A DNA stretch of 64,000 nt, taken from NCBI GenBank assembly GCA_023265625.1, contig JAHFST010000001.1, positions 1 through 64,000 on the forward strand, read 5' to 3'. Every line of letters begins with the position of its first letter. Within the stretch, counting starts at the first letter, position 1. Under the pieces are notes generated by a model. That model did not search any database. It was not told the origin of the DNA and worked only from the letters and a program-made list of their open reading frames with translations. Both the position numbers and the translations under genes were made by a program. This DNA is from Deltaproteobacteria bacterium. Its GTDB lineage: Bacteria > UBA10199 > JACPAL01 > JAHFST01. Shown here one piece after another: positions 13,806-63,536 of this stretch.

Positions 13806-13815
13806 AGTCTATCTT

Positions 13816-14385: not shown

Positions 14386-14387
14386 CC

Positions 14388-15083
14388 CTATATGGATAAG
14401 GCCTGATAGGCTGTTTGGAATGCCTCGGCGTAAATCATTCCCGATTGTCCCCCGCGATAGGCAGCCAGACTTTTTATAACTTCCCGGGACCGTGGGTGAG
14501 GAAATGCTCTCATTACACCCTTATATGATTCAATCGCTCTAATCTTAATCTCCAGATACGTTTTGCCTATTTCAAAAAAAGTATTAGCTTGGAAAGAACT
14601 ATTTTCGGTAGGAAATGCCCAGTCAGTTGAAGATAAAACCTCCATAAAATATAATCCTTTAAGTTTTGTTGTGGTCTTACGCTGACACAATCTTGCAGCG
14701 GCTTGGCACGCTTTGGATGTGTGATAATGGTCATTATTGAGATCGTTTGGATGATGTGTAAAAATATAAGTTGGCTTTAATTTCTCGATAACGCTTTCTA
14801 TAAATTGAACTAATTCCAAGTGAGGCACTGTGTTAAATTTTATATTTGGGAAATCTCCTAAAATTGGAGGCTGGCAGCCCATTATTTTTTGAGCAATTAT
14901 AGTTTGTTGTCTTAGTACGTTGACTGTTGGTCTGTCCCGTCTGGCATCTACTTCACCCGCTAACATGCAATTATAAATCTGGTAACCATCTGCGCTATAT
15001 TTAGCCGCGGTTGCTCCGAACCCTAACGCCTCATCATCAGGATGAGCGGTGACAGAAAGAATGATCGGCTTACTCATTTTCAT
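14388..15083 (-). CDS. PIG-L/LmbE-family N-deacetylase
   Basis: 231 residues. Zinc-binding 'HPDDE' is at residues 14-18, with the second histidine cluster in 'THHPNDLNNDHYHTS' (about 110-124). Family members remove N-acetyl groups from GlcNAc-type sugars on lipid or small-molecule carriers. With a formyltransferase and PglC-type transferase immediately downstream, the likely task is exposing an amine on a sugar for new acylation. The start could be ATG 15083 or the ATG two codons later; both precede the conserved core. It opens a small transcription unit after a 231-bp gap. Confidence 0.85.
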   Translation of the reverse strand: MKMSKPIILSVTAHPDDEALGFGATAAKYSADGYQIYNCMLAGEVDARRDRPTVNVLRQQTIIAQKIMGCQPPILGDFPNIKFNTVPHLELVQFIESVIEKLKPTYIFTHHPNDLNNDHYHTSKACQAAARLCQRKTTTKLKGLYFMEVLSSTDWAFPTENSSFQANTFFEIGKTYLEIKIRAIESYKGVMRAFPHPRSREVIKSLAAYRGGQSGMIYAEAFQTAYQALSI

Positions 15084-30073: not shown

Positions 30074-31201
30074 TTATCTCTCGAAGAAAGACTTTAAGCA
30101 ATCAATAACGTAATTGGTCTCATCAATGGACATTTGAGGGAAGAGGGGTAGCCGGAGAAGGCAAGATCCAGCCAAATCCGTAACATTCATTTTACTTCTG
30201 ACAACTCCATAATGCCTACCCGCTATCGAGCTATGTAATGGGACGAAGTGAGTTGTACTCTCGATGCCATTTTTTAAGAGCCAAATCATGAGTTTATGTC
30301 GAACGGTTTCAGAATTCAAAAGAATGAAAAATGAGTGATAGTTGGGTTCACACCCTTGCGGAATGGTTGGGAGCCGAAATCGTCCATTAGAGAAAGAATG
30401 AAGTCCCTGGTAATATTGGTTAAAAAGCCGTCGTCTCAGCTCCGTGATGGTTTTGATCTGTTCCAATTGAGCAAACAAAAAAGCAGCTAAGATATCAGAG
30501 AGACAGTAATTTGAGCCACGATCAACCCATGAGTATTTGTCTACCTTGCCAAGTAGGAATTGAGATCGATTGGTTCCCTTCTGTCGATGAATTTCTATCC
30601 TCTCTTGAAAATGTGTGTTATTAACAATGACTGCGCCTCCCTCACCACTCGAGAAGTTCTTGGTCTGATGAAAGCTATACGTTCCTAAGTCACCCAGCGT
30701 TCCCAGAGGCTTGCCGTGGGAAAAGGCATTTACTCCCTGAGCAGCGTCTTCAATAACCCATAGATTATTTTTTCGAGCCATTATGTTAATGGCGTCCATA
30801 TTTGCAGCCACGCCGGCATATTGGACAACCAGGATTGCTCGTGTTTTTTCCGAAAGGGCCGATTCGATCAGGGCTTCATCCAGATTAAGAGTGTCTTCTC
30901 TTACATCGACAAAAACTGGAGTTAACCCCATTTGAACTGCAGCATTGGCCGTTGAAGGAAAGGTAAAAGAAGGCATAATCACTTCGTCTCCCGGCTTTAA
31001 ATCCAGCGACATCAGGGCTAACTCTAGAGCGGCCGTACCGGAGGGTACAAGATAACCAGGGGAACCTGTCATAATTTTTAACAATTGAACACACTTGAGT
31101 GTAAAAGATCCATCCCCCGACCAATGAAGCGAATGAACGGCCTCCTTAATATTATTTAATTCTTTTCCTGTGAGGTAGGGCTTAAAAAAAGAAATTTTCA
31201 T
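30074..31201 (-). CDS. wecE: dTDP-4-amino-4,6-dideoxygalactose transaminase (WecE/RffA family)
   Basis: 375 residues, DegT/DnrJ/EryC1 fold. 'PSGTAALELALMSLDLKPGD', 'VVQYAGVAANMDAINIMARK', 'VIEDAAQGVNAF' and the PLP-binding Lys181 in 'SFHQTKNFSSGEGGA' match WecE; 'YSWVDRGSNYCLSDILAAF' is a WecE-type signature. The reaction is PLP-dependent transamination of dTDP-4-keto-6-deoxy-D-glucose with glutamate, giving dTDP-Fuc4N. Its substrate would be made by the RmlA and RmlB encoded at 39.2-40.9 kb on the same strand. The amine formed is a target for the acyltransferase at 33.1 kb. Confidence 0.87.
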   Translation of the reverse strand: MKISFFKPYLTGKELNNIKEAVHSLHWSGDGSFTLKCVQLLKIMTGSPGYLVPSGTAALELALMSLDLKPGDEVIMPSFTFPSTANAAVQMGLTPVFVDVREDTLNLDEALIESALSEKTRAILVVQYAGVAANMDAINIMARKNNLWVIEDAAQGVNAFSHGKPLGTLGDLGTYSFHQTKNFSSGEGGAVIVNNTHFQERIEIHRQKGTNRSQFLLGKVDKYSWVDRGSNYCLSDILAAFLFAQLEQIKTITELRRRLFNQYYQGLHSFSNGRFRLPTIPQGCEPNYHSFFILLNSETVRHKLMIWLLKNGIESTTHFVPLHSSIAGRHYGVVRSKMNVTDLAGSCLLRLPLFPQMSIDETNYVIDCLKSFFER

Positions 31202-31236: not shown

Positions 31237-32112
31237 TTAATCCCTATGACAAATAGCTAGAAGTGACCCTCCGACTGGAAAATTAGCCCAACGGAGGATT
31301 GCTTTTTCGGCAGACATAATTTTTCCGAGAATTTTATTCAAGAATGGGGATATCTGAAGTTCAAGAGACTTTTGTGAAGAATAGATGTTTTTCTTCTGCC
31401 ATATTCGGGAAACCACAAGAAGAGGGAAGAGAAAGCTATTAAAAAATGTCAGTCGATCCACCTTAAAACCAGCACTTCGGAGTCTGGATGACAATTGATT
31501 TCTCGTATACCGGCGTTTGTGGAAAGCTGCGGTGTCCGGTGGTCCCCACAGAAATGGATATGCGGGGACCGTCACTAAAAGATAGCCGCCGGGCTTGAGG
31601 GCCCTATGGATTTGACTTAAGGATCCGATGTCGTCTTCAATATGCTCCAAGACATCAAAAATTCCTATGGAATCAAATTCCTCCTTGAATGGAAGCTTGT
31701 TAATGTCCAGCATAAAGAGGGGTATTGAGGGGAGACGGGAGCGACAAAATTTCAGCGCATCTAAAAATAGGTCGGCTCCATGAAGTGAAGCCCCGATGTG
31801 GGACAAACGTGCTAGCATGTATCCATTACCGCATCCAATTTCGAGAAACTTTGAACCGGTTTTTATATAAGCCTCTAAAAGCTTCTCAAGGATATCGCCC
31901 CTGGATTTGAACCAAAAATGGCGTTCTTCCGTCAATAAGAGTTGTTCAAAAGAGTCTGAAGGGAAAGAAGCTGTTGTGTCCAACGTGTGACTTGGAGCGA
32001 GATAGGTTATAGTTTCGTTAGTAGGATATGATCTATAACACATTGGGCACAAATAGGGAGAACCGGGAGAGATCCATTCCATTGGGGCATCACAATCAGG
32101 GCAAATAGTCAT
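31237..32112 (-). CDS. Class I methyltransferase with N-terminal zinc ribbon
   Basis: 291 residues. An N-terminal zinc ribbon has Cys4, Cys7, Cys22 and Cys25 ('CPDCDAP' and 'CPMCYRSYP'). A Methyltransf_11-type domain follows: motif I 'FLEIGCGNGYMLARL' (about 93), 'IGIFDVLEHIEDDIGSL' and 'LKPGGYLLVTVPAYPFLWGP'. A weakly hydrophobic segment near residues 215-235 may contact the membrane, as in methyltransferases working on lipid-linked glycans. Target unknown. Coupled to the preceding propeller gene by an ATGA overlap. Confidence 0.8.
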   Translation of the reverse strand: MTICPDCDAPMEWISPGSPYLCPMCYRSYPTNETITYLAPSHTLDTTASFPSDSFEQLLLTEERHFWFKSRGDILEKLLEAYIKTGSKFLEIGCGNGYMLARLSHIGASLHGADLFLDALKFCRSRLPSIPLFMLDINKLPFKEEFDSIGIFDVLEHIEDDIGSLSQIHRALKPGGYLLVTVPAYPFLWGPPDTAAFHKRRYTRNQLSSRLRSAGFKVDRLTFFNSFLFPLLVVSRIWQKKNIYSSQKSLELQISPFLNKILGKIMSAEKAILRWANFPVGGSLLAICHRD

Positions 32113-33038
32113 GTGGTAGGATTTTCTTCCTTAACAGCCAAGCCCATACCACTAGCACCGTATTCATTACCATTGTATAAAGCGTAAACTTTGTTTTTGT
32201 AAAAAAAAGGATGAGCATAACAAACCATTCCTGAGTCCCATCCACTTTCCGAGACATTGATTCCCACATTTTCAGGATCCCTATCCCATTGTTTGCCGTC
32301 CTTGGAAGTAGCTACTCCAATACGATAGGTGTCATCGCCTCCGCGAAAGGAAAACCACATCGTATAAAGTCCGTCTTCTTTAAAAACCACGGGGCGGGCA
32401 ATAGCATACTCACCATCTCTATAGGTGATGCATAAGTCAGAATTTGTCTTCCAATCGAATCCATTATCTGATTCTGCGTATTTAATTGTGTAGTAATGTT
32501 TTGGTTTTGATGAGCCTTCCTCTAAGGACCATCCGGTGCCCGATATATACCACATTTTAAACACATTGTTCTCAATGAGAACATAAGGAGCGCCAGTGAT
32601 GTAAGGATCATAATGAGTGCGCCCCAGCACGGGTGCGAGCGAAATTCTTTCATAGGTTTGACCAGCATCCTTCGATATTGCAAGCCCAATATGAAAAGAA
32701 AAAGGGACTATCACTGCTTTTGACCATCCGGTATAATACATATATTTCACATCATTATAATCAACGAGTCCAGATGGCATGACACCCGAATCGTCAAAAG
32801 TTCCCAGCAATCCGAGATCAAGAGTTGGTTTTTCAGAGATGTTCAGAATCTTGTGAGGATTTTCGATGTTGAAATCGAAATAGCCACCACGGGCACGGTT
32901 ATTTTTATCCCGGGCAGCAAAATGTACGCGGAAGATACCGTTGCCCAAGAATTCTGGCAGAGGATTTTGCGCATGAGTATGCAACCACTCGTACTGGCCC
33001 GGCTGGAAAATATTCCCCATTTTTTTCCATTTATTCAT
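32109..33038 (-). CDS. GH43/GH32-like five-bladed beta-propeller protein
   Basis: 309 residues made of repeated beta-sheet blades: recurrent segments such as 'FHIGLAISKDAGQTYERI', 'TIKYAESDNGFDWKTNS' and 'YRIGVATSKDGKQWDRDP' each give a small aromatic strand plus an S-x-D-G turn. This is the fold of glycoside hydrolase clans J/F and relatives. No signal peptide, so it is cytoplasmic. Similar proteins in sugar clusters are annotated as putative glycosyl hydrolases, but an acid pair cannot be assigned with certainty, and a transferase or binding role is possible. It sits between an acyltransferase and a methyltransferase gene. Confidence 0.72.
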   Translation of the reverse strand: MNKWKKMGNIFQPGQYEWLHTHAQNPLPEFLGNGIFRVHFAARDKNNRARGGYFDFNIENPHKILNISEKPTLDLGLLGTFDDSGVMPSGLVDYNDVKYMYYTGWSKAVIVPFSFHIGLAISKDAGQTYERISLAPVLGRTHYDPYITGAPYVLIENNVFKMWYISGTGWSLEEGSSKPKHYYTIKYAESDNGFDWKTNSDLCITYRDGEYAIARPVVFKEDGLYTMWFSFRGGDDTYRIGVATSKDGKQWDRDPENVGINVSESGWDSGMVCYAHPFFYKNKVYALYNGNEYGASGMGLAVKEENPTT

Positions 33039-33062: not shown

Positions 33063-33737
33063 TTAGTCAAAATCAATTAGACCCATGAATCTATTGCTGT
33101 TTAGTGGTGATTTGGGAGCTCCCGAAGCCAAGTATACTCCGCCCTCAACCGTATTTTTCGTAATCAATGCATTGGCGCCTATAAAGGAGAGGGGTGCTAT
33201 AGTCACCTGGTTTGATATGGTTGAATTATTTCCCAAAAAGCAGAATGACTCTATGATTACTTCACCAGAAATGCAGACATGTGACGAAAGCCAGTTATGA
33301 TCTTTAATTACGCTGCAGTCTCCGATATGATTTCCTGACCAGATGGTGACGTTATTACCAATCGTTACGTCTAAGTTGATGGTTTGCCCTTCCAAGATAA
33401 AACAATTTTCTCCCACCTTTAGATTTTCAATATGGGGTATTGTTGAACTTACGTAGCTGATAAACGCATAACCCTTTTGTTTTGCCCGCATATATTTTTC
33501 TTGCCTAATTTTGTTGAGATTCTTGAACCCAAGGGGGACGAACATCTCATATTCACCGGGTGGATAGACTGTTTCAATGATGTCAAAATCAATAATGGGA
33601 AGGTTGTGAAATTTCGTTTCTTTTAGGTACTGTTTTTCCACGGTGAAGGCACAGATATGGTGTGGACTGTCCTTGATGAGATATCTGAATGCGACATCGG
33701 CTCCACGTCCGATCCCGAATATAATCACCTTAGCCAC
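33063..33737 (-). CDS. NeuD/PglD-family N- or O-acyltransferase (left-handed beta helix)
   Basis: 224 residues. An N-terminal Rossmann-like UDP-sugar-binding domain (about 1-80, 'IFGIGRGADVAFRYL') is followed by hexapeptide repeats (about 105-205), including 'VTIWSGNHIGDCSVI'. The family's catalytic His region is in 'KDHNWLSSHVCISGEV'. PglD and relatives acetylate the 4-amino group of UDP-4-amino sugars; NeuD O-acetylates sialic acid. Here it probably acylates the amine made by the WecE-like enzyme two genes downstream. An acyl donor other than acetyl-CoA is conceivable because an acyl carrier cassette is immediately upstream (9-bp gap). GTG start. Confidence 0.8.
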   Translation of the reverse strand: MAKVIIFGIGRGADVAFRYLIKDSPHHICAFTVEKQYLKETKFHNLPIIDFDIIETVYPPGEYEMFVPLGFKNLNKIRQEKYMRAKQKGYAFISYVSSTIPHIENLKVGENCFILEGQTINLDVTIGNNVTIWSGNHIGDCSVIKDHNWLSSHVCISGEVIIESFCFLGNNSTISNQVTIAPLSFIGANALITKNTVEGGVYLASGAPKSPLNSNRFMGLIDFD

Positions 33738-33746
33738 GAAAAAGCC

Positions 33747-35300
33747 TCATATTGTATTACAAAGGACTTCCTTTATCCTTTTTCGATCTACCTTTCCATT
33801 AGCATTCTTGGGAAGATTATCTAAAAAATGATAACGAGTAGGTATCATATAAGATGGGATAATTTCTTGGAGTTGTTTTTGAATACAACTTTCTTCTAAA
33901 TTTACGGTGGAACTGATGAAGGCAATCAGTTGGCTTATCCCATTGATGAGAGTATGCACAACGGCGACTTGCTGAATGTCATTAAGACAGCAGATGGCGT
34001 TTTCGATCTCTTCCAATTCGATGCGATATCCCATATGTTTAATCTGATTATCCTTACGGCCTGAAATGTAAATTTTATTGTCTACAGGATTCAGCATGAC
34101 TAAGTCGCCAGTCATATACATGACCTCTGTGGTACTGTTGTTTTGAGGGTTTTGAACAAAACTCAAACGCGTTCTTTCAGGATTGTTATAATACCCTTTG
34201 CCGACACCAGGACCCATTAAACACAGCTCGCCGATTGTATCGGGCGCCACCGATTTACCTTCATCGTCAAGGATCAAATAGTTAAAATTTTCTATTAGGT
34301 TGCCAAGGGGTAAGAATCCACTCATCTCGGAGAAATCGTCATGAGATACAGGGTAGGTAGAGCAAATGCATGTGCATTCAGTGGGGCCATATACATTATG
34401 AAACTCAATTCTATTATTATACAAATCGAATAGTGCTTTTAGTTTTACTTTTGGATAACCCTCACCTCCAAAAATAATACGACGCATACAAGTCATATTG
34501 GATACTTTGAATGCCTTCATAGTTTGAAGAAACATCAACAACGACGGAACTGAGAACCATGAGGTGCACCGACACTCGGCAATTTTTTCGACGAGTCTTT
34601 TAGGATCGGTTACTTCTTGTTTGGAAAAAGGAACCAGAGTCGCGCCCGAGAAGAAAGATGAATAAATATCAAACACCGCATTATCAAAAAAAAGAGGATT
34701 GAGATTAGTTAAAATCTCACCTGGTCTAAATCCATAAGCGTTGATGCTCCATGCGATAAGGCTGAGCACATTTGAATGGGTCATAACTGCTCCCTTAGGA
34801 AAGCCTGTGGACCCCGAAGTAAACATGATGTAAGCCGCGTAATCACCCGTTATCTCTGTTGATTCATCAAGGTTGGTGGAAGATAGATTTTGAATTGTCG
34901 CGTTCAGAGATTCATCCCAACAAATGGGAGTACAAAAACTTGAATCTAACATTTCTTCAAGATGAAATTCTTTCGGATGAAAAATTATTTTAGGGGTACA
35001 AGTCGTAAATATTTTTTTTAGCCTCTTCGCCGGACTGTCAGGATCGAAAATGCTGTAGATAACTCCTAACTTAAGGCACGCCAAGATAGCCGAATAGCTG
35101 TATAGACATTTTTCGCCTGCGATGCAGATGACTTCTTGAGGTTTGATTCCGAATTTTAGGAAATGGCGGGCCAGTTTATTTGAGAACTCGTTAATCTGTA
35201 CAAAAGAATATTGTTCTGACTCTCTAAAGAAAAGGCAGATTTCATTTCCCCATTGTTCCACTACTTGGTAAAAGCTGAGAGCAAGGTTAGGGCTAGTCAT
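33747..35300 (-). CDS. DltA-like amino acid/acyl adenylating ligase
   Basis: 517 residues from ATG 35300 (a TTG two codons earlier is possible). Full adenylate-forming fold: P-loop 'FTSGSTGFPKGA' (160-171), 'FFDNAVFDIYSSFFSGATL' (about 204-222), 'NVYGPTECTC', 'MTGDLV', hinge region 'SGRKDNQIKHMGYRIELEEI' and C-terminal catalytic Lys in 'NANGKVDRK'. The Asp in 'FDNAVFDIY' occupies the place where amino-acid-activating enzymes (DltA, NRPS A domains) hold the substrate amine. An amino acid substrate is thus more likely than a fatty acid. It would load the carrier protein encoded two genes upstream. Coupled to the SDR gene. Confidence 0.85.
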   Translation of the reverse strand: MTSPNLALSFYQVVEQWGNEICLFFRESEQYSFVQINEFSNKLARHFLKFGIKPQEVICIAGEKCLYSYSAILACLKLGVIYSIFDPDSPAKRLKKIFTTCTPKIIFHPKEFHLEEMLDSSFCTPICWDESLNATIQNLSSTNLDESTEITGDYAAYIMFTSGSTGFPKGAVMTHSNVLSLIAWSINAYGFRPGEILTNLNPLFFDNAVFDIYSSFFSGATLVPFSKQEVTDPKRLVEKIAECRCTSWFSVPSLLMFLQTMKAFKVSNMTCMRRIIFGGEGYPKVKLKALFDLYNNRIEFHNVYGPTECTCICSTYPVSHDDFSEMSGFLPLGNLIENFNYLILDDEGKSVAPDTIGELCLMGPGVGKGYYNNPERTRLSFVQNPQNNSTTEVMYMTGDLVMLNPVDNKIYISGRKDNQIKHMGYRIELEEIENAICCLNDIQQVAVVHTLINGISQLIAFISSTVNLEESCIQKQLQEIIPSYMIPTRYHFLDNLPKNANGKVDRKRIKEVLCNTI

Positions 35301-35302
35301 TT

Positions 35303-36052
35303 TCAAATTGTTAAACCGCCGTCTATCTCAATAACTTTTCCATTAATGAAGTCGTTTTTAATGACACTAATAATGCCAGACGAAATGTCATGAACTTCGC
35401 CGAGCTTTCTTAAAGGTACTTTGTCTGTAATTGTTTTGATCGCACTCTCTCTAAGAATCTTATGAGTTGATTCCGTATTGATGAATCCCGGTGAAATCCC
35501 CACCGTTCTTATCCCAAACATCCCGAGCTCTTTCGACCAAGTAGCCGTTAATGCATTCACGCCTGCTTTGGCGGCTGAATAGGCTGTTTGACCGGCATTG
35601 CCGTTTGCACTAATAGAGCTGATATTGACGATGACTCCCCGAGTCCTCTTCAGTAGCATTTTTTCGGCTACACAAACAGTAATATAAAAAACTGAGCTCA
35701 GATTGGCCGATATGATTTTGTCCCAATCACCTAGGAGATGTTTTTTTATTCCATCTGGTGAAAAACTCACGAGTGGTGAGCTGTGCAATACTCCCGCATT
35801 ATTCACAAGAATATCAATGCATTGCCATTTGGAAAAAATGCTTTCAATGCAAGCCTCTACTTCTAAGGCATGGGTTAGATCACAATCTACAGTAATGACT
35901 CTGTCCCGTTGTGAAGCTAAATCTGCAAGCCGCGCTTGATCGATATCGATTACACAAACATTGGCACCTTCCTGGAGTAAATCCAGCACCAATCTGTATC
36001 CGATTCCATTGGCCCCTCCAGTTACAATAATATTTTTGCCCGTAATATCCAT
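35303..36052 (-). CDS. SDR-family oxidoreductase (FabG-like)
   Basis: 249 residues, classical SDR: 'IIVTGGANGIGYRLVLDLLQ' with the TGxxxGxG cofactor site, 'LVNNAGVLHSSPLVSF', catalytic Ser in 'IVNISSISANGNAGQ', and Tyr-Lys in 'TAYSAAKAGVNALT'. Its place between a carrier protein gene (TAATG overlap) and the adenylating ligase (2-bp gap) suggests that it reduces a keto group on a carrier-bound acyl chain, as FabG does. Direct action on a sugar is the alternative. No defect seen. Confidence 0.83.
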   Translation of the reverse strand: MDITGKNIIVTGGANGIGYRLVLDLLQEGANVCVIDIDQARLADLASQRDRVITVDCDLTHALEVEACIESIFSKWQCIDILVNNAGVLHSSPLVSFSPDGIKKHLLGDWDKIISANLSSVFYITVCVAEKMLLKRTRGVIVNISSISANGNAGQTAYSAAKAGVNALTATWSKELGMFGIRTVGISPGFINTESTHKILRESAIKTITDKVPLRKLGEVHDISSGIISVIKNDFINGKVIEIDGGLTI

Positions 36053-36303
36053 TACAACTCGTCTTGCTTAATGCTTTTCAGGATAGTTTTTTTGATGTCC
36101 CCAACACTCTTCATATTGACAATATCTTCATACGTGAGCTCAATGTTGAACTCACTTTCAATACTCACAATGAGTTCCATGTGCCTCAAGGAATCCCATG
36201 TATCAATGTCCTTCAGCATTGACAAATCATCTATGGATTCAACGGACACATTGAGTACGCTGCAGATGATTTCGATTAATCTAACAACCCCAGCATCTAC
36301 CAT
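36052..36303 (-). CDS. Acyl/peptidyl carrier protein
   Basis: 83 residues from ATG 36303, preceded by a CGGAG ribosome-binding sequence; an upstream in-frame TTG at 36339 would overlap the methyltransferase gene and is less likely. Four-helix carrier with Ser38 in 'DTWDSLRHMELI', the 4'-phosphopantetheine attachment site, followed by 'IESEFNIELTYEDIVNMKSV', a typical ACP helix II-III stretch. It is too specialised in position to be the fatty-acid ACP. It heads a coupled set: carrier, SDR, adenylating ligase, NeuD-like acyltransferase, and presumably presents an activated acyl or aminoacyl group. Confidence 0.88.
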   Translation of the reverse strand: MVDAGVVRLIEIICSVLNVSVESIDDLSMLKDIDTWDSLRHMELIVSIESEFNIELTYEDIVNMKSVGDIKKTILKSIKQDEL

Positions 36304-36325: not shown

Positions 36326-37510
36326 CTATTGAGGGACAATTTGGTTCCACGTAATGATGGATGCTGCGAGACATCTGTCCCTCAGCGTTTGTTCTAAACT
36401 TGGCTGATTCAGAGGCTCAGTACCGAGTACTACTGCATCCTTCCGTGTAAATTCTATCCCTTGGTAGGGCATCACCGCCTTGTCCATGAATTGGCCCGAA
36501 AACTCATCAATGACACAGGCGTCTACCTTTTGCCAGTATTTCGGGCAATAACCCCTCAATAAATAGCTCCACATACTTGCTCCAAAATTATAAACCGCAG
36601 TCTTGTCTGATACACTCTGGCAGAGATAATTGTCTAGAGACTGCCAGCCTTCGAGGTATTGGTTGCGTTCTTCAATGTTTTCAGAAATGCTGAATGATGG
36701 AGGATCACCGGAACAGAAGGTAAAGGGAATACGACTATCCTTCGATGCAATTATTAGTTGTTTATTGGCCAGGTTCACGAGCGAGGGTGGCATTTGCCAT
36801 GAGAGAACGTGCAACCCTACATCTGAAGCCAGCTTAAATAGGTGTACGGGAGCGAGCGAGAAATTTTGATCAGACCACATCATTTCATTGCTGGGCCTGG
36901 TCACATCAGGGCAGGTAAGCACTATCAATCCGTTATCACTTACGATCTGCATTAAGTTACTCAAAAACTTTCGTGGAGATAATGAATGTTGGATCACATT
37001 GTTGCAATAAATTAGATCAAATGTGCCAACTGTAGACATTGCAGCCTCGAGCGTTGACGTAATAATATCGAATCCATTTTCGCTTGCCAGCCTGGCATCT
37101 TCTTCTGATGGTTCAATTCCGGTGATGGGGGTGTCAGGAAATAGGAGGGACATTTCTTTCATCGTCCAGCCTCTTCCGCATCCCACATCTGCTATATTCT
37201 GCGGACAAAATTTGCCAAGAGAGCTTTTCATCCACATGGCCGTAGCTGCATATCTCGATCTATCAAATGTTTCAGCCCCGACCCGGCTAAAATAAGTATG
37301 ATAATTTTGTGTATAAAATGTCCCTTGCCCCAAAAGCTCGGTGGTAAGCCGTTGCACGACACCGCAGGAGTTACATTGGCCCTTTCCCAAAGAAGCATCG
37401 ACAATCATCCCTGAAGTGGTGACCGAAGGTCCGCTTTCAGCCCAAGGTAACAGATGCCAGCTACATTCATCACATACTTCACAACAGACCTTCTTATTTA
37501 TGCTTGTCAC
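36326..37510 (-). CDS. Sugar C-methyltransferase-like protein (zinc site, SAM domain, C-terminal Rossmann domain)
   Basis: 394 residues from GTG 37510, preceded by AAGGAG ten bases upstream; the longer in-frame start would overlap the GT2 gene by 86 bp. Order of parts: N-terminal Cys-rich zinc site ('CCEVCDEC', then 'CNSCG'), SAM domain ('NIADVGCGRGWTMKEM', 'YCNNVIQHSLSPRKFL'), C-terminal nucleotide-binding-like domain ('VYNFGASMWSYLLRG'). This three-part plan is that of NDP-4-keto-sugar C-methyltransferases of the TylC3/NovU kind. It could add a branch methyl to a keto-deoxy sugar here. O- or N-methylation cannot be excluded. Confidence 0.75.
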   Translation of the reverse strand: MTSINKKVCCEVCDECSWHLLPWAESGPSVTTSGMIVDASLGKGQCNSCGVVQRLTTELLGQGTFYTQNYHTYFSRVGAETFDRSRYAATAMWMKSSLGKFCPQNIADVGCGRGWTMKEMSLLFPDTPITGIEPSEEDARLASENGFDIITSTLEAAMSTVGTFDLIYCNNVIQHSLSPRKFLSNLMQIVSDNGLIVLTCPDVTRPSNEMMWSDQNFSLAPVHLFKLASDVGLHVLSWQMPPSLVNLANKQLIIASKDSRIPFTFCSGDPPSFSISENIEERNQYLEGWQSLDNYLCQSVSDKTAVYNFGASMWSYLLRGYCPKYWQKVDACVIDEFSGQFMDKAVMPYQGIEFTRKDAVVLGTEPLNQPSLEQTLRDRCLAASIITWNQIVPQ

Positions 37511-37511
37511 C

Positions 37512-38453
37512 TTACATGTTCTCCTTCTGATCAATGATAAATAACGGCCTATTTTTAGTCTGGACAAAGATTTGTCCGATATAGGCACCCACAACACCCA
37601 TTGTCATCAATAGAAGTCCTGTGTTAAAAATAATAAGCACGACGATGCTGGTCCAGCCCACCATCAATCCCTTCGCAAAGTAGGTGTGTAAGATTGAAAT
37701 TATAAAGATAAAGCCGACGAATGAAAATAGAAAGCCAACGTAAATGGAAAGAATTAGCAATCTATCCGTTTGCGAAATAATTCCGTTGACGGCATGACTT
37801 GCCAGTTTCAAAAAAGAGTAAGAGCTTTTTCCCTCGAAGCGCTGATCATGTTCTACTTGAATGTGTGAGTTGGAAAAGCCTAGCCATTGGAGAATGATCA
37901 AATAGGGGCGGTGGTAATCATTTATGGCAATATATGCATCGGCGACCTTACGGGTGATTAGTGAGTAAGTACCTATTTTCCCGCTGCTCGAGATACCCTT
38001 GTTCCTACCTATCAGCCAATTAAAGAGAGAATGAAAAATAAGGGCAAATGAATTCTTAATCAAAGTATGTTCCCGTTCTTTCTTAACGGTGTATATAATA
38101 TTAAAATCTTCCCGAATTTTATCATATAACGCGTAAAAATATTTTGGATTGTCCTGCAAATCGCAATCCATCACTATGATATAGTCCCCCTTTGCATGGA
38201 AGACCCCGGCCGTAATGGCATGATGCTGTCCAAAATTTCTGCTCAGTCTAATGCCCTTTACCTTTGAATTGGCTTTGCAGTTTTCACGAATTTTAGCCCA
38301 GCTGGAGTCAGGACTGCCATCCTCAACGAGGATGATTTCGAAATGATGAGTGATTTTTACAATCTCTTCGCAAATCCGTTTTACCAATTCATCGACAATT
38401 GTTTCAGCCCTATAAACTGGACTGACGATGGATATGAATGGCTCAGGTTTCAT
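37512..38453 (-). CDS. GtrB/ArnC-like polyprenyl-phosphate glycosyltransferase (GT2)
   Basis: 313 residues. The N-terminal GT-A domain has 'ISIVSPVYRAETIVDELVKR', 'EIILVEDGSPDSSWAKI', the metal-binding 'IIVMDCDLQDNPKYF' and 'QRFEGKSSYSFLKL'. Two C-terminal membrane helices lie at about 228-260 and 268-300. Family members (GtrB, ArnC, DPM-like) move a sugar from its nucleotide to polyprenyl phosphate, making donors for GT-C enzymes on the outer face of the inner membrane. This fits the GT-C-like protein encoded at 28.5 kb. Its start overlaps the WbqC-like gene by 11 bp. Confidence 0.88.
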   Translation of the reverse strand: MKPEPFISIVSPVYRAETIVDELVKRICEEIVKITHHFEIILVEDGSPDSSWAKIRENCKANSKVKGIRLSRNFGQHHAITAGVFHAKGDYIIVMDCDLQDNPKYFYALYDKIREDFNIIYTVKKEREHTLIKNSFALIFHSLFNWLIGRNKGISSSGKIGTYSLITRKVADAYIAINDYHRPYLIILQWLGFSNSHIQVEHDQRFEGKSSYSFLKLASHAVNGIISQTDRLLILSIYVGFLFSFVGFIFIISILHTYFAKGLMVGWTSIVVLIIFNTGLLLMTMGVVGAYIGQIFVQTKNRPLFIIDQKENM

Positions 38454-39165
38454 CTTTAATTTCCTTGGACGTTGACTTCAGATGGCCAGCGGCCTCATGA
38501 CCGGCATTGAAGATTAGGTCGATGACACTGACCTCATGTTCAAAATCTCCAAAAAGTTGATGGTAGGGCTTATAGCCTGAATAATCGAGCCAGGTCACTT
38601 TTATATCTGCCGCGTCAAATATTCTCGTATCCAGGTAATCTTTTGCGGCTGGGCCTGAAATGTATTCAGTGGCACCTAATTTTTTACAAATATTCAGCAA
38701 TCTTTCGCTCTTATCACCAATCTGCTCAAAATCCGATGACAGCCGGAATTCCGTTTCTATTTTAAGTAACATACAAATTGCCTTCAGAAACCTGTGATTG
38801 ATTCTGCTTAAGAATAATTCATCGCATCCCAAATAGAGGTTCTCAAAGAAATCTCTATGCTCTTTAAAAAAGCGCGCCCTCGCATAGTTGAGCTGAATGC
38901 TCTTCCAATGCTGTTTATTCCAGCTTTTGTCCGAGATTTTCGTTGTGTTGATTGGCTGCGAATATTTTCCTTTGACATCAACGGGGATAGTGAGCCAGTG
39001 CAAACCACTTGGAGTCTTTATTAGATTTCGGTTACGCCAATCCCGGCGAGTATATTGGACTTCATCGTAGACAACGAATACATCGGCCATATTGATGGCA
39101 TCAAAGTAACCTTTCCAGGGGATATAATTGGATTGTGTGATCAAAACTATTTTCTTTTTCGGCAT
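38443..39165 (-). CDS. WbqC-like family protein
   Basis: 240 residues from ATG 39165, overlapping the rmlB stop by one base (TGATG). Recognised by 'ITQSNYIPWKGYFDAINMAD', 'DEVQYTRRDWRNRNLI' and 'WLTIPV', the N-terminal signature of the WbqC family found in O-antigen loci. The biochemical activity of the family is not established to my knowledge. Its steady company with rmlA/rmlB and 4-amino-sugar genes suggests a step in making or modifying a dTDP-amino sugar. No membrane segment. Cytoplasmic. Confidence 0.82.
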   Translation of the reverse strand: MPKKKIVLITQSNYIPWKGYFDAINMADVFVVYDEVQYTRRDWRNRNLIKTPSGLHWLTIPVDVKGKYSQPINTTKISDKSWNKQHWKSIQLNYARARFFKEHRDFFENLYLGCDELFLSRINHRFLKAICMLLKIETEFRLSSDFEQIGDKSERLLNICKKLGATEYISGPAAKDYLDTRIFDAADIKVTWLDYSGYKPYHQLFGDFEHEVSVIDLIFNAGHEAAGHLKSTSKEIKDET

Positions 39166-40223
39166 CAAATTTTATTCGCTCCGTATTGTCTCTCATAATA
39201 TTTCATGTAATCACCAGATCGTATCTCATCAGCCCACGCGTGATGGCGAGCATACCATTCAACTAATAAGGGAAGATTTGTTTCTAGTCTATGATAGGGC
39301 ATCCAGCTTAATTCTTTACTAAGCTTTGAATTGTCGATGGCATATCGACGATCATGTCCTGGCCGATCATCAACGAAAATAGGTAATTTTTGTGTTGTCC
39401 CTCTTGGGATGCTTTTAAAATCGTCAACGGCATTGCAAATCTTATGGACAATGTCTCCATTCGTGTATTCTTGTTGTGCACCTACCAGGTACGTTTCGCC
39501 GATCTTCCCTCTTTGAATAATTTTGAGCAACGCCCTACAATGGTCCTCAACATGAATCCAGTCACGAATTTGAAGCCCATCTCCATAAATGGGTATTTCT
39601 TTCCCTTCCAGTGCGTTGAGAATCGTAAGAGGGATTAGTTTTTCAGGAAATTGCCATGGTCCGTAGTTATTAGAGCAACTTGAGATGATCACAGGGAGGC
39701 CATAAGTGGCATGCCAAGCTCTGACAAGATGGTCTGCAGCTGCCTTACATGCGGAATACGGACTACTGGGCTGATAACGTGACTCTACGGTGAATGAGCT
39801 GGCCTGAGCAGGAAGAGATCCAAACACCTCATCGGATGAAATATGCAGAAATAGGCGACCCTCCGTTGAGAGCCATGATTTCCTCGCCGCCTCTAAGAGG
39901 CTATAAACTCCTTCAATATTACTCTTAATAAAAGTACCGGGATTTAGGATGGAGCGGTCAACGTGGCTTTCTGCGGCGAAGTTGACAATAACGGAGATAT
40001 TATATTTTTGAAACAATTCAGCCAAGAGTTTGGTGTCTACAATGTCCCCTTTAATGAAAGTGATCCTTGATGATTTCAGAAGCTCAGTAATCCTTGAAAG
40101 ATTGCCCGCATACGTGAGGGAATCAACGACAATGAGTTGATCATCAGTATGCTCATGAACTAGACGTAAGAAATTGCCGCCAATAAATCCTGCGCCACCG
40201 GTAATAAGTGCCGTGCGTTTCAC
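39165..40223 (-). CDS. rmlB: dTDP-glucose 4,6-dehydratase
   Basis: 352 residues, GTG start overlapping the rmlA stop (GTGA). 'ALITGGAGFIGGNFLRLVHE' binds NAD; 'SLTYAGNLSRI' and 'NFAAESHVDRSI' are RmlB-specific. The active site is 'HISSDEVFGSLP' (Asp-Glu dehydration pair; Ser replaces the usual Thr) with 'SPYSACKAAADHLV' giving Tyr and Lys. Product: dTDP-4-keto-6-deoxy-D-glucose, substrate for the WecE-type transaminase encoded 8 kb downstream. No rmlC or rmlD is adjacent, so L-rhamnose is not the obvious end product of this pair. Confidence 0.93.
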   Translation of the reverse strand: MKRTALITGGAGFIGGNFLRLVHEHTDDQLIVVDSLTYAGNLSRITELLKSSRITFIKGDIVDTKLLAELFQKYNISVIVNFAAESHVDRSILNPGTFIKSNIEGVYSLLEAARKSWLSTEGRLFLHISSDEVFGSLPAQASSFTVESRYQPSSPYSACKAAADHLVRAWHATYGLPVIISSCSNNYGPWQFPEKLIPLTILNALEGKEIPIYGDGLQIRDWIHVEDHCRALLKIIQRGKIGETYLVGAQQEYTNGDIVHKICNAVDDFKSIPRGTTQKLPIFVDDRPGHDRRYAIDNSKLSKELSWMPYHRLETNLPLLVEWYARHHAWADEIRSGDYMKYYERQYGANKI

Positions 40224-40945
40224 AAGATGTTATTATTATTTCTCAAGAGTATATTGTTTGCTTCCTGAAGAGATTCAAAGGTTCCGGCGTCCATCCAGTT
40301 GCCCTGAATAAAACCATACTCAAGATGGCCCTTGTTAAGATAAGTGTTATTGACGGAAGTGATTTCCAATTCTCCTCTCATAGATGGTTTAAGTCCTTTA
40401 ATGACTTCAAATACCTGATGGTCATACATATAGCAACCAACTACGGCATAGTTTGACCTTGGTTTGGTTGGTTTTTCTTCAATGCTGAGAATTTGCTTTT
40501 CGTCCAAAGCGGCCACTCCAAAACGCTCCGGGTCTCTAACTTCCTTCAGGAGTACTCTAGCCCCAATGGACTGTTGAGAAAAAGCTTCGACATGTTCAGA
40601 GATGGAATATTCAAAAATGTTATCGCCTAATAAGACGATAATCTTGTCTTTTGATGAGAAGTCTTCAGCTAAAGCGAGAGCTGCCGCAATACCCTTCGTC
40701 TCTTCTTGAACTCGGTAAGTGAATTTACATTCAAATCGCTTACCTGAGCCAAGTGAATTGACAATATCTCCCATATGTTCCGTAGAAGTAATTACAAGAA
40801 TATTCTTGATATTAGACTGGCAAAGTTGGCGTACAGAATGCCATATCATCGGTTCTCTCCCGATCGGCAGCAAATGCTTATTCGTTATTTCGGTAAGTGG
40901 TTTTAAACGGTTTCCTTTACCACCAGCGAGTATGACACCGTTCAT
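40220..40945 (-). CDS. rmlA: Glucose-1-phosphate thymidylyltransferase
   Basis: 241 residues from ATG 40945, overlapping the upstream stop by 4 bp (ATGA); a longer start would disrupt this coupling. 'ILAGGKGNRLKPLTEITNKH' binds the nucleotide and glucose-1-phosphate, followed by 'LLPIGREPMI', 'VLLGDNIFE' with the catalytic Asp, 'EVRDPERFGVA' and 'SIEEKPTKPRSNYAVVG'. This is the short RmlA form, without the C-terminal extension of E. coli RmlA. Makes dTDP-glucose for RmlB. Confidence 0.9.
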   Translation of the reverse strand: MNGVILAGGKGNRLKPLTEITNKHLLPIGREPMIWHSVRQLCQSNIKNILVITSTEHMGDIVNSLGSGKRFECKFTYRVQEETKGIAAALALAEDFSSKDKIIVLLGDNIFEYSISEHVEAFSQQSIGARVLLKEVRDPERFGVAALDEKQILSIEEKPTKPRSNYAVVGCYMYDHQVFEVIKGLKPSMRGELEITSVNNTYLNKGHLEYGFIQGNWMDAGTFESLQEANNILLRNNNNIL

Positions 40946-42006
40946 AAAGAACCTCGATCGAAATGGGATGGAACGAAAATCTTTCGAATACAACTGTCTT
41001 TCGGATGCATTTCGTCATAGAAATCATTTGAACTGCAATTTGAACGAGTGGGGTCATATGACCCCCAAACTTTGATAGCTTTACTTTCAGCAAAGCGTCT
41101 AATTTCAGCTTCCACAATTTTAAGCTCCGGGTGAAGCATGTTCATTTTCTCAAAAGCAATGGGGTGATAGGGGGGGAGGAATATGTCGACTTTGGTAGTT
41201 TTCTGCATCAATCCAACAAAGCTGTCAAGTAAAGCTAGGGCAGGTTTTGAAAACGAGAAGTTTCCCAAGCTATACACAGCAGCGTCAGCGGCCTCCTTAC
41301 CAACGGCATTAGTTGATAAACTTTCACGATCAGAGGTGTATATGAGACTACCATCTCGCCGAATTTTAAGAAAGCCACTTTCCGGGGTCCCGCTATCACT
41401 TGCCTTATAGCGTGATGTGTTTCCAGACAATAGGGTGTTAATTGAGGATTCTGTATAACTCCAGTTTAATAACTGGGTAAACTTAGAGGATTGATAACTC
41501 TTCTGATGGTTGTTTGTTCCAGCGGATAGATGCAACATCAAGATCGCAGCTTCAAATTCTAGATTGATACTTTCCCATCTGTTTTGCCCAGATGCGACAT
41601 TAAAGACCCATGGGTCTAAGCCAACGACGATACGATTTACTTTCAAGTGTCTAAGACCCAAAACTCCTAGTGCCAAATGATCTTCGATACTGGCGCCACT
41701 GACTGAGAGGTTTAGCACTGACGAACCCAAATTATCCCCTGATATTTGCATGGAGCGAGAGCTACCTGTGATGAGTGTAATGGGGCGGTCAGTTGGTTCG
41801 TAAAGTACACAATATTTTTTGAATTGACGCTCGTCATAATTTCCGGCAACGGATAAATAATTACTATTAAGTAAAAGTTTTGCCATTTCTGCTTCAGAAC
41901 CAGAATTGCGAAAAAGCCCAGCAGGGTCAATGGAGAAATTAATCCCGACGATTATGGAAAGTGAGGATAAAAAAAAGGTTAAGAATAGAATGTTGTAACG
42001 TCTCAT
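40942..42006 (-). CDS. SGNH-like partner of the MBOAT acyltransferase (AlgJ/AlgX/DltD-like)
   Basis: 354 residues from ATG 42006, overlapping the MBOAT stop by one base (TAATG). One N-terminal membrane anchor ('YNILFLTFFLSSLSIIVGI') is followed by a periplasmic domain with 'LITGSSRSMQISGD', where Ser would be the nucleophile of an SGNH-type site, and near the end 'NDFYDEMHPKD', giving the Asp-x-x-His pair. Such proteins complete the transfer of acetyl groups from an MBOAT channel to a polysaccharide in the periplasm. Sequence identity to any one family is low, so the call leans on context and motifs. Confidence 0.65.
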   Translation of the reverse strand: MRRYNILFLTFFLSSLSIIVGINFSIDPAGLFRNSGSEAEMAKLLLNSNYLSVAGNYDERQFKKYCVLYEPTDRPITLITGSSRSMQISGDNLGSSVLNLSVSGASIEDHLALGVLGLRHLKVNRIVVGLDPWVFNVASGQNRWESINLEFEAAILMLHLSAGTNNHQKSYQSSKFTQLLNWSYTESSINTLLSGNTSRYKASDSGTPESGFLKIRRDGSLIYTSDRESLSTNAVGKEAADAAVYSLGNFSFSKPALALLDSFVGLMQKTTKVDIFLPPYHPIAFEKMNMLHPELKIVEAEIRRFAESKAIKVWGSYDPTRSNCSSNDFYDEMHPKDSCIRKIFVPSHFDRGSL

Positions 42007-43541
42007 TAGAACTGAAAATATAAAAAGGCGCTGTCCCTTTGAAGGTGAGTTATGCAAACAGCCAATAAAAGTGCCATTGGAAAAGAAAGCCAGATAAATC
42101 GATGTTCTTTAGCCTCAAAAGAACGAGAATCCGCAAGATTTAGCAGGCGTGTCGAAGAGGGGGCCAAGAAAGCCATTAACATTGCAAAAAGTGTCAATAA
42201 AAAAATCCGAGTCGTTCCAACTTCTTTTGGTGTCAATTGTTGAGTAAAATTAACACCCCATTGGCCTGCCAAATCTGCTATTGCCGTGACTGTTTCAAGC
42301 TGAGATGGTAGCGAAATTCCATTCGTACCAAACATTCCAAGAAAAATTGATTGGGCACTCGCAATGGAATCTGAACGGAACAGTACCCATGCGAAGCAGA
42401 CACATGTAAATGTGATGAGCCAGCCTAGCCGTCTCCCAAAGTAGCTTTCAAAATGCTTTGCAAAAGGTGACGATCTCCATGTGTGATTGAGTATAAGATA
42501 GGCGCCATGTAAGGTTCCCCACAGAACGAATGTCCAGCTCGCACCGTGCCATAGGCCTCCTAATACCATCGTTGCAAAGAGATTAATATGCCGCCTGAAT
42601 TTTCCCAGCCTGTTCCCGCCCAGCGGAAAGTAGAGGTAGTCGCGCAGGAAAGTCGATAAAGAGATGTGCCATCTCCGCCAAAAGTCGATGATACTCGTTG
42701 CCTTGTAGGGCGAGTTAAAATTTATCGGCAACTTAATCCCAAACAAGAGTGATAGGCCAATGGCCATATCGGAATAGCCTGAAAAATCGAAATAGATTTG
42801 AAACGTATAGGCCCATACACCAAACCAAGACATGAATAATTGCGGTGACAGCCCCGATTTTACACCATTGAAAAACGCATCGGCATACTCTCCAAGTAGA
42901 TCTGCAATGAGGAGCTTCTTGGCCAGCCCAACGGTAAAAATAGTCATGCCGAATGCGACCTTTTTATGGTCAATGGCATAGGTTTCTTTCTTCCCGAACT
43001 GAGGCATCATCTGCGCATGATGAAGAACAGGTCCCGCGATTAGGTGTGGGAAGTAAGAGACGAATAAGAGGTAGTGGATAAAGTTACGCTCTTTTACTTT
43101 GCCTCTGTAACAATCAACGAGAAAAGCGATTTGTGTGAAGGTAAAAAACGAGATACCGATCGGCAATATAATGTTGAGTAGCGGAATTTGCTTATATCTA
43201 AAGAGGCCCAACGTAAAATTAATATTGTCGATTAAGAAGTTGGTGTATTTAAAAGTAGCAAGTACGCCAAGATTAACTACGAGCCCTGTGATTAGAAAGA
43301 ATCGTCTGTTCTGATTCAAAGATGGCTCAGGACTGGATAGTAAAACGCCAAGCCAATAGTTGACAAAGATCGAGATTAATAAAAGAGGCAATGCTTTTAC
43401 ACTCCAATAGCCATAGAAAACCAATGATGCAAGCCCAAGCCAGCCGGCCGCAGCAAAATGATTTCTACGTGCGATTACGTAGAAAAATATGAAAACGAAC
43501 GGTAAGAAGCCAAAAATGAATTCGTAGGAATTAAATAGCAA
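42006..43541 (-). CDS. MBOAT-family membrane O-acyltransferase (AlgI-like)
   Basis: 511 residues from TTG 43541, which gives the family-typical opening residues MLFNSYEFIFGFLPF; a TTG four codons earlier overlaps the upstream stop and is possible. About ten or more membrane helices. 'FPHLIAGPVLHHAQMMPQF', 'FDFSGYSDMAIGLSLLFGI', 'FWRRWHISLSTFLRDYLYFP' and the catalytic-His motif 'GGLWHGASWTFVLWGTLHG' are all present. It moves acyl groups, usually acetyl, across the inner membrane for O-acetylation of exported glycans, together with the downstream SGNH-like protein. Confidence 0.92.
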   Translation of the reverse strand: MLFNSYEFIFGFLPFVFIFFYVIARRNHFAAAGWLGLASLVFYGYWSVKALPLLLISIFVNYWLGVLLSSPEPSLNQNRRFFLITGLVVNLGVLATFKYTNFLIDNINFTLGLFRYKQIPLLNIILPIGISFFTFTQIAFLVDCYRGKVKERNFIHYLLFVSYFPHLIAGPVLHHAQMMPQFGKKETYAIDHKKVAFGMTIFTVGLAKKLLIADLLGEYADAFFNGVKSGLSPQLFMSWFGVWAYTFQIYFDFSGYSDMAIGLSLLFGIKLPINFNSPYKATSIIDFWRRWHISLSTFLRDYLYFPLGGNRLGKFRRHINLFATMVLGGLWHGASWTFVLWGTLHGAYLILNHTWRSSPFAKHFESYFGRRLGWLITFTCVCFAWVLFRSDSIASAQSIFLGMFGTNGISLPSQLETVTAIADLAGQWGVNFTQQLTPKEVGTTRIFLLTLFAMLMAFLAPSSTRLLNLADSRSFEAKEHRFIWLSFPMALLLAVCITHLQRDSAFLYFQF

Positions 43542-43549
43542 AATTAATC

Positions 43550-44779
43550 TCAACTAACAGCATTGAAAGCTTTTGGTAAAGCATGTTTATGGTATGCCTG
43601 AACACTACAAAAAATAAAAAAAATAAACATAATAGGCTTAAACATCGTTAAGTGATGTATAAAGCCAATCGACGAGAAAAATAGTATTGTCGTATAATCA
43701 TTCATGCGAAAAGTGAATTTTTTAAGAATGGGACTGTACATGATCGTAAGCCACATTAAGGTCGCTATCCCGCCTATTTCATAATGCATCCTGAGGATGG
43801 CAACTTCATTGATAAGAAATTCATGGGGAATCTCCCCAGTGGGAATTCCAAAGATTGAAGAGTAGCCTAGTCTTACAAATCCATTTGGAAAAAAACCGCC
43901 ATTTACAAATAGGAACCAGCCATCATTCAAAAAAAGATCAAGAATAATGCCACCGGAGCCTCCTTCGCCAAACTGTCTAATATAATCATCGAAATGATCT
44001 GACATCTTGAAGTAGAGTCCAAAAAAAACAGGGGTAATTAATAGTATCCACCATACATTTCTAAGGCTTATACGACGAAATGTTATCAGTATTGATGTGA
44101 ATAGAACTGCAACAAACCAAGTTCTCATAAATGCCATATAACTGAGAATAAGACTCAGAGAATATAAGATATAGCGTTTTTGAAGTAGGCAGATGACGCA
44201 AAACGTAGCAATGGCAAGAGCACCAGTTTGATAATCCAAGCCCATGCCAATGGGTCGTCCAAGCCCCTCATATCCAGGCACATCCATTGTTTCTCGCATG
44301 GCATCAAAATTGAACATAAAGCTCTTCATCCAAAGCTCAATCGATGGGGCGTAATTTGCTGATAAAAGTTCAATAATTTCCCAGACTATGTATGCTTTTA
44401 GGATAAATGAAAAATGTTTTAAAAATGTTTTATCAAAGCCATCATATTTGGATAGATATTTAATAATAGGGATGTAAAAAAGACACGAAAAATAAAATTT
44501 AAATCCTAGCAAATAGGACAGTAGATCGCCTTGGATTCGCCATGGATAAAGAATAATTAAAAAAACGATAATACTCAAAAATAAAACAAAACGTCTATCA
44601 TATGATCCATACCAAGAAAAAAGCAGTGGTATGCAGTAGATAACAAACTCAAAAATGACCACTGGAAAAATCTCTAAACTGGGAGATATGTTTCTCACTA
44701 TCCCCCGAAACAATGCTTCAAATGCGCTCAGATAAAGAGCCGCTATGACGAGTCGAAGGAACCATCGTTGCTTGTTCAT
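43550..44779 (-). CDS. Wzy-like O-antigen polymerase or ligase (polytopic membrane protein)
   Basis: 409 residues with about ten or eleven membrane helices and a larger periplasmic loop around residues 245-320 ('GEGGSGGIILDLFLN' to 'IFGIPTGEIPHEFLINEVAI'). The His in the loop 'GEIPHEFLINEVAILRMHYE' is placed like the conserved loop His of Wzy/WaaL proteins. Sequence conservation in this class is low, so the call rests on topology, loop and genetic context. It would join lipid-linked repeat units in the periplasm. The start overlaps the upstream GT2 stop by 4 bp. Confidence 0.65.
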   Translation of the reverse strand: MNKQRWFLRLVIAALYLSAFEALFRGIVRNISPSLEIFPVVIFEFVIYCIPLLFSWYGSYDRRFVLFLSIIVFLIILYPWRIQGDLLSYLLGFKFYFSCLFYIPIIKYLSKYDGFDKTFLKHFSFILKAYIVWEIIELLSANYAPSIELWMKSFMFNFDAMRETMDVPGYEGLGRPIGMGLDYQTGALAIATFCVICLLQKRYILYSLSLILSYMAFMRTWFVAVLFTSILITFRRISLRNVWWILLITPVFFGLYFKMSDHFDDYIRQFGEGGSGGIILDLFLNDGWFLFVNGGFFPNGFVRLGYSSIFGIPTGEIPHEFLINEVAILRMHYEIGGIATLMWLTIMYSPILKKFTFRMNDYTTILFFSSIGFIHHLTMFKPIMFIFFIFCSVQAYHKHALPKAFNAVS

Positions 44780-58521: not shown

Positions 58522-58549
58522 GTCAATTTGGCTTTACCTGGGTTCTCAT

Positions 58550-59329: not shown

Positions 59330-59345
59330 AGGTCAACATAACAGG

Positions 59346-60284: not shown

Positions 60285-60305
60285 CATCGTTGGGAGATAA
60301 TTCAA

Positions 60306-61769: not shown

Positions 61770-61779
61770 AAATTAGTGC

Positions 61780-62487: not shown

Positions 62488-62503
62488 GATTTGTAAGATC
62501 CCT

Positions 62504-63517: not shown

Positions 63518-63536
63518 TTTATTAATGTGATAATAT

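Follow-up and report, generated by a model that had tools for sequence, protein, structure and literature searches.

Several described systems resemble the gene module treated here, which is built around a putative amino-acid ligase and lies in a stretch of 64,000 nucleotides from a Deltaproteobacteria bacterium (assembly GCA_023265625.1, contig JAHFST010000001.1), hereafter called the window. According to its description (PMC3927599), the viosamine island of Pseudomonas syringae (vioA, vioM, vioS, vioB, vioR, acp) acts on a deoxythymidine diphosphate (dTDP)-4-amino-4,6-dideoxysugar and has in common with the module an acyl carrier protein (ACP) gene, a FabG-like reductase, a VioB-type acyltransferase, an aminotransferase and a methyltransferase. 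Indeed, the viosamine-type set of acp, FabG-like short-chain dehydrogenase/reductase (SDR), VioB-type transferase and sugar aminotransferase is complete in the window. However, the acyl chain of the island comes from the ketosynthase III VioS, in place of which the module has a predicted amino-acid adenylating ligase, and relatives of the module, unlike the island as it is described (PMC3927599), have an extra GNAT acyltransferase or formyltransferase. The tetronate genes of Vibrio cholerae O1 (RfbK/RfbL, WbeL) likewise use a ligase and a carrier to provide a 4-amino sugar with its N-acyl substituent, but RfbL is grouped with acyl-ACP synthetases and has 2,4-dihydroxybutanoate as putative substrate (PMC12208996, PMC3441752). 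The module probably differs from that system by its ligase pocket, the ligase there being RfbL (VC0249). DltA and DltC, like the module, pair a stand-alone adenylation domain (A domain) with a separate carrier and have Asp235, Ser278 and Lys517 in common with it, whereas the DltA pocket reads DLMSLCTV against DNFSIGVCI in the module and Cys301 of DltA is replaced by Gly. Finally, the initiation module of the linear gramicidin synthetase LgrA (formylation-adenylation-carrier) combines an A domain with N-formylation, as do four relatives of the module (L016, L020, L021, L029); its own formyltransferase domain formylates the aminoacyl carrier, but LgrA is a multidomain peptide synthetase while the module stands in a sugar cluster.

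A preliminary description of this DNA had proposed that the ligase is specific for an amino acid rather than a fatty acid, that it is DltA-like and that its carrier is accordingly an aminoacyl carrier. The segment on which this was founded, FFDNAVFDIYSSFFSG, is located inside the ligase open reading frame, and the interval 33747-36303 consists of three genes, adjoining ones overlapping by 1-4 nucleotides (the acp frame extends to 36339 with a TTG start, its ATG being at 36303):

33747-35306, minus strand: predicted AMP-forming amino-acid:carrier-protein ligase, a stand-alone adenylation domain of 519 amino acids with the code DNFSIGVCIK (PF00501 and PF13193)
35303-36052, minus strand: FabG-like SDR of the nicotinamide adenine dinucleotide (NAD) type (Asp36) with Ser145/Tyr158/Lys162 (PF00106; best NCBIfam model PRK08217, 231.8 bits, cut-off 298)
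36052-36303, minus strand: acyl/peptidyl carrier protein with the phosphopantetheine Ser in WDSL (PF00550, 1.5e-8)

The assignment to amino-acid adenylating enzymes, and not to fatty-acid ligases, holds as a prediction from family, fold and pocket residues, and the aminoacyl carrier that follows from it draws on the same evidence. The top NCBIfam model for the ligase is TIGR01733 (amino-acid adenylation domain), at 317.1 bits for a cut-off of 317.4, while the fatty-acid CoA ligase models give at most 199.9 bits (PRK06187, cut-off 476). Among PDB chains matched by sequence LgrA comes best, together with other A domains, and the DltA entries stand behind. The AlphaFold2 model of the ligase, computed from 28 aligned sequences, has a predicted local distance difference test score (pLDDT) of 90.3, and amino-acid A domains make up all 50 of its best VIA-align rows (Z 46.6-51.3), none of which is an acyl-CoA ligase; A1 of ApnA (51.3), a Ser-activating FscH domain (51.0), LgrA (49.8), GrsA (49.0) and DltA (47.8 and 47.0) are among them, rows so close in Z that they do not discriminate the substrate. 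Foldseek groups the model in the same way.

The substrate pocket points in the same direction. Its ten residues, placed by A-domain motifs, are D208, N209, F212, S252, I278, G280, V305, C313, I314 and K505, and in the numbering of GrsA, transferred by way of the LgrA and GrsA motifs, Asp208 corresponds to 235, the position of the alpha-amine, and Lys505 to 517. Asp208 falls in the same column as the FD-motif Asp of the LgrA A domains and of near-canonical DltA proteins (L094-L096), so that the Asp announced by the preliminary description at the alpha-amine position is indeed kept. A scan of species-representative genomes yielded 115 relatives of the ligase, of which 80 were kept; 42 loci (L001-L041 and L043) make up the module, and the rest (L042 and L044-L080) are other proteins resembling DltA. 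The pocket was counted over the window and 41 relatives, excluding the incomplete L041 and the off-clade L042, and these loci were not chosen by their pocket, since the single search pattern that spans it, FFDNAVFD, is exact only in the window and the relatives mostly read YFDNSVFD. The equivalents of Asp235 and Lys517 occur in all 42 ligases, and the ten columns are nearly invariant (D 42, N 42, F 42, S 41, I/V 35, G 41, V 41, C 42, I 41, K 42) in spite of a median pairwise identity of 46%, which indicates that a single amino acid is probably used by the ligases throughout the module. Leaving aside D235 and K517, the remaining eight positions have a mean conservation of 0.92 against 0.62 for all columns, a value beyond chance because only 14 of 20000 random eight-column draws equal it. 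Four further AMP-forming ligase genes from this genome differ at column 235 (V, L, I or M), in a region where their alignment is poor (five rows, two of them from one gene).

As for the likeness to DltA, the residues around the Asp are DltA-like in the motif backbone FD..V.D.Y.....G and not in the specificity residues. The DltA models are missed by a wide margin (TIGR01734, 288.2 bits for a cut-off of 559.85; NF003417, 293.1 for 476). The Firmicutes neighbours gave no DltA above the cut-off, the near-canonical L094-L097 scoring 558.6 to 483.7 bits against 559.85, and L094-L096 (539-559 bits) read DLMS[LI]CTV[CA]K in the pocket columns. The window ligase shares with them D235, S278 and K517 and, like them, is hydrophobic at 299, while most other positions differ; in particular position 301, a Cys in L094-L096 that is important for D-alanine in DltA, is Gly280 in the window and Gly in 41/42 module ligases (Ala in 1/42). 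A Dlt-like D-alanylation, in which ligase and carrier would feed a membrane-bound O-acyltransferase (MBOAT, 42006-43553) and a DUF1574-like protein (40942-42057) for transfer of D-Ala outside the membrane, might be suggested by the 172 bits that this MBOAT, 6 kb upstream of acp, scores to DltB, albeit below the cut-off of 375. It is highly improbable, since an MBOAT homologue is found in 1/42 relatives and the DUF1574-like protein in 0/42, the ligase falls short of the two DltA models by some 270 and 180 bits, and neither the SDR nor the NeuD-like acyltransferase described below would have an explanation. We thus reject DltA identity on model scores, pocket and gene context, and a Dlt-style MBOAT partner on its near absence from the relatives; a likeness to DltA that would imply D-alanine as substrate is not supported.

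The gene set acp-sdr-ligase-neuD-GH130-like recurs as a module in the 42 loci, its last two genes being in the window:

33063-33737, minus strand: left-handed beta-helix acyltransferase of the NeuD/PglD/VioB type (TIGR03570, 134.9 bits, cut-off 160.8)
32109-33038, minus strand: GH130-like beta-propeller protein (beta-1,2-mannobiose phosphorylase model at 2.9e-8, far below its cut-off; PDB entry 9fj8 at 3.3e-5)

By clustering, which gives lower bounds since some contigs are short, the ligase is present in 42 of the 42 loci, NeuD in 40, the SDR in 39, the ACP in 36, the UbiE-like methyltransferase (MT7) in 26, a family 2 glycosyltransferase (GT2) in 25, a second methyltransferase in 21, and a GNAT (PF12746) and GtrA in 19 each. 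The GH130-like protein is likewise a constant of the module (39/42 loci), without an evident phosphorylase role. Profiles find SDR and ACP together in 40 loci, where they are adjacent and on the same strand in every case, including the five with an oppositely transcribed ligase (L009-L012, L038). The catalytic residues Ser145, Tyr158 and Lys162 of the SDR are kept in 41/41 sequences, as is Asp36, presumably the residue that sets the preference for NAD; Asn117 is kept in 37/41, and the phosphopantetheine Ser50 of the ACP (counted from the TTG) in 41/41. The best families of the SDR are 3-oxoacyl-ACP reductases, although below cut-off, and no PDB chain matched it by sequence at 1e-40. The preliminary description had offered, as one option, that this SDR acts on the sugar. 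Sugar pathways commonly have SDRs, and sugar dehydrogenases occur among its family matches; nevertheless, an amino-acid-specific ligase accompanied by a sugar-directed SDR appears quite unlikely to us, because sdr adjoins acp in 40/40 loci, also where the ligase is divergent, and because its top families are directed at ACP-bound substrates. With its catalytic residues and Asp36, the SDR therefore probably acts, in an NAD-dependent manner, on the group bound to the ACP, an aminoacyl carrier being also the object of oxidoreductase work in NovJ/NovK.

Further evidence for an amino acid comes from additional N-acyltransferases. The gene following sdr is a GNAT in 20 of the 42 loci and a formyltransferase in 4, hence one or the other in 24/42; it is the ligase in 10, neuD in 3 and an opposed gh130 in 2, nothing follows in 1, and 2 loci are without sdr. 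The formyltransferase takes the place of the GNAT exactly between sdr and ligase in L016, L020, L021 and L029, and a quick tree of the ligases requires at least 4 changes between the two. When the three short loci L015, L026 and L041 are omitted, 35/39 loci possess one or more of four N-acyltransferase families (PF12746, PF13480, PF13302, Formyl_trans). Since one aminotransferase gives one sugar amine, the second N-acyltransferase makes most sense if there is another amine, that of the amino acid itself, supplied by the aminoacyl carrier. This second acyltransferase would be left without explanation in a hydroxy-acid or short-acyl pathway, in which the ligase would load a carboxylic acid lacking an amine, the SDR would set a hydroxyl and NeuD would transfer the product to the sugar. 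The gene logic of the viosamine island is alike, and RfbL of V. cholerae O1 is listed as a putative 2,4-dihydroxybutanoate ligase (PMC3927599, PMC12208996). We nonetheless give such a pathway little chance, given Asp235 in 42/42 ligases, closest relatives that are all amino-acid A domains, and the absence, in family searches, of a ketosynthase from the twelve genes at 30-41 kb.

The remaining genes of this region point to the acceptor:

30074-31201, minus strand: WecE-like aminotransferase (NF008687, 463.3 bits, above the cut-off of 375; wecE-like in 31/42 loci)
31237-32112, minus strand: S-adenosylmethionine (SAM) methyltransferase, of a class present in 13/42 relatives
36326-37597, minus strand: SAM methyltransferase upstream of acp (Methyltransf_23/11), with a strong homologue only in L003
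37512-38453, minus strand: GT2 similar to PgfS and ArnC, of the undecaprenyl-phosphate sugar transferase type (PgfS 1.7e-54, ArnC 3.4e-41, both below cut-off)
38443-39168, minus strand: WbqC family protein (PF08889, 2.7e-78)
39165-40223, minus strand: dTDP-glucose 4,6-dehydratase, RmlB (TIGR01181, 432.1 bits, above the cut-off of 365.1)
40220-40993, minus strand: glucose-1-phosphate thymidylyltransferase-like protein, RmlA-like (TIGR01208, 237.8 bits, below the cut-off of 320.25)

The WecE-like, RmlB and RmlA-like proteins together predict dTDP-4-amino-4,6-dideoxygalactose, with one free amine. From the computed families, fold, pocket conservation and gene linkage we infer the substrate class, the order of steps and the acceptor, and the balance tips towards a pathway in which the SDR modifies an aminoacyl-ACP, whose acyl group is then transferred to the dTDP-4-amino-4,6-dideoxysugar. 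The ligase would adenylate one particular alpha-amino acid, its amine held by Asp208, and load it onto the ACP; the SDR would alter the bound aminoacyl group, the simplest change being an oxidation or reduction at the beta carbon; the acyltransferase of the NeuD/VioB type would hand this group over from its carrier to the 4-amino of the hexose made by the RmlA, RmlB and WecE-like proteins; and, in most relatives, the free amine of the amino acid would receive a cap, either acetyl (from the GNAT) or formyl. NeuD/VioB-type proteins acylate sugar amines, and the window protein matches PglD, QdtC, perosamine N-acetyltransferase and VioB in the PDB as well as LpxA/LpxD, which use acyl-ACP as donor. 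After that, the GT2, given its likeness to ArnC and PgfS, would attach the sugar to a lipid carrier, so that the sugar may pass through a lipid phosphate. Amino acids are frequent on bacterial surface sugars, and their mode of activation is, to our knowledge, known in few cases. If this pathway is true, it would lead into polysaccharides in the manner of nonribosomal peptide synthesis, with a stand-alone A domain, its own carrier, an oxidoreductase and a sugar N-acyltransferase, under one code in eight phyla; we class the module as a form of ACP-dependent N-acyl amino-sugar synthesis. The attachment of amino acids to Qui4N, Fuc4N and other amino sugars is well-established chemistry: among O-antigen sugars, Qui4N can bear N-acetylated amino acids and Fuc4N can bear D-Asp (PMC10609480).

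Some observations weigh against the aminoacyl-ACP pathway. DNFSIGVCIK fits none of the amino-acid codes with which it was compared, so that the comparison of the pocket with DltA and A-domain codes bore out the Asp/Lys pair and neither a DltA pocket nor an amino-acid code. None of the four extra N-acyltransferase families is found in L005, L006, L007 and L034 or near the window module (L005 and L007 have a further hexapeptide transferase, and the formyltransferase of the window, an ArnA-like protein at 12966-13805, is 20 kb away). The module formyltransferase does not resemble LgrA more than it does sugar formyltransferases, which makes the sugar amine a possible target. Moreover, the NeuD proteins of the window and of L005-L007 have an Asp at the position of PglD His125 (Asp140 in the window), where 37/41 have His; because of this Asp and of the absent caps, the branch may make a different final group.

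The WbqC protein also has to be considered here. Its structural model (pLDDT 90) is nearest to BshC (4wbd, Z 13.7, root-mean-square deviation 3.6, 225/241 residues), a cysteine:amino-sugar ligase, followed by class I lysyl-tRNA synthetase (Z 11.2) and remaining rows below 8, which suggests that WbqC could be a HUP-fold amino-acid ligase. With wbqC in 27/42 loci, it might thus be WbqC that makes the first amide, between amino acid and sugar amine, with the ACP pathway attaching a further acyl substituent to that amino acid. We regard this as unlikely: Foldseek gives no match for WbqC at E<=0.001, a WbqC-BshC profile comparison returns a probability below 1%, and clustering shows no wbqC in 15/42 loci, some of them on short contigs. 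By sequence, WbqC matched no PDB chain.

Within the aminoacyl-ACP pathway, a variant with threonine can be formulated, which we consider a long shot and which would supply the route, so far lacking, to cyclic 5-oxoproline substituents of sugars. Threonine would be loaded on the ACP and oxidised by the SDR to a 2-amino-3-oxo thioester; in many relatives the UbiE-like methyltransferase would add a C-methyl and the GNAT an N-acetyl group, and ring closure of this acetyl onto the ketone would give a 5-oxoproline-type substituent before transfer to the amino sugar. The products would be 3-hydroxy-3-methyl- or 3-hydroxy-2,3-dimethyl-5-oxoproline, or close kin, and both groups are known on O-antigens, those of V. 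cholerae O5 and Plesiomonas shigelloides O74 (PMC10609480). In favour of this variant, 29 of the 30 loci with MT7 have a GNAT (Fisher 1.8e-5); however, on the tree the link comes down to 4 independent pairs and is not significant, and the window itself has neither the UbiE-like methyltransferase nor the GNAT. A further point against it concerns Ochrobactrum endophyticum, which reportedly bears such a 5-oxoproline-type group: among the 394 genomes of the family of the Neorhizobium genome, a sample in which this species may or may not be included, the ligase was found in the starting genome only (1/394).

In a quick tree, the 42 module ligases fall on one side of a branch with a Shimodaira-Hasegawa-like approximate likelihood ratio (SH-aLRT) of 100, apart from DltA (4 rows) and from the other AMP-forming ligases of the genome (3 rows), whose branches are very long. 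The hosts include Acidobacteriota, Verrucomicrobiota, Myxococcota, Bacteroidota, Planctomycetota, Vulcanimicrobiota, Thermodesulfobacteriota and Pseudomonadota; environmental strains with the module are Thiocapsa roseopersicina DSM 217, Cupriavidus basilensis OR16 and Neorhizobium vignae, among others. Among 60 genomes (that of the window and 59 relatives), only the former has the ligase at 1e-60, and the module therefore probably moves between lineages. Plasmid records contained only distant A domains, in 5 records at 31-32% identity. The literature, searched on the general terms of the module and on WbqC with a small coverage of subscription papers, did not yield a recognised description of it.

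Other features of the window and of the relatives can be mentioned. Within L034 (1294-10147), gh130 and gt2 each occur twice in one short locus, on opposite strands. At 40942-43553 of the window, the MBOAT O-acyltransferase lies beside the DUF1574-like protein, as in alginate-type O-acetylation, and at 12966-15083 the ArnA-like formyltransferase, a bacterial sugar transferase and a PIG-L deacetylase are found side by side. Finally, judging by the reading of their translations, the genes at 57769-63995 resemble those of a nonulosonic-acid pathway (the end of a NeuB, a PseG-like protein, cytidylyltransferases and an SDR pair).

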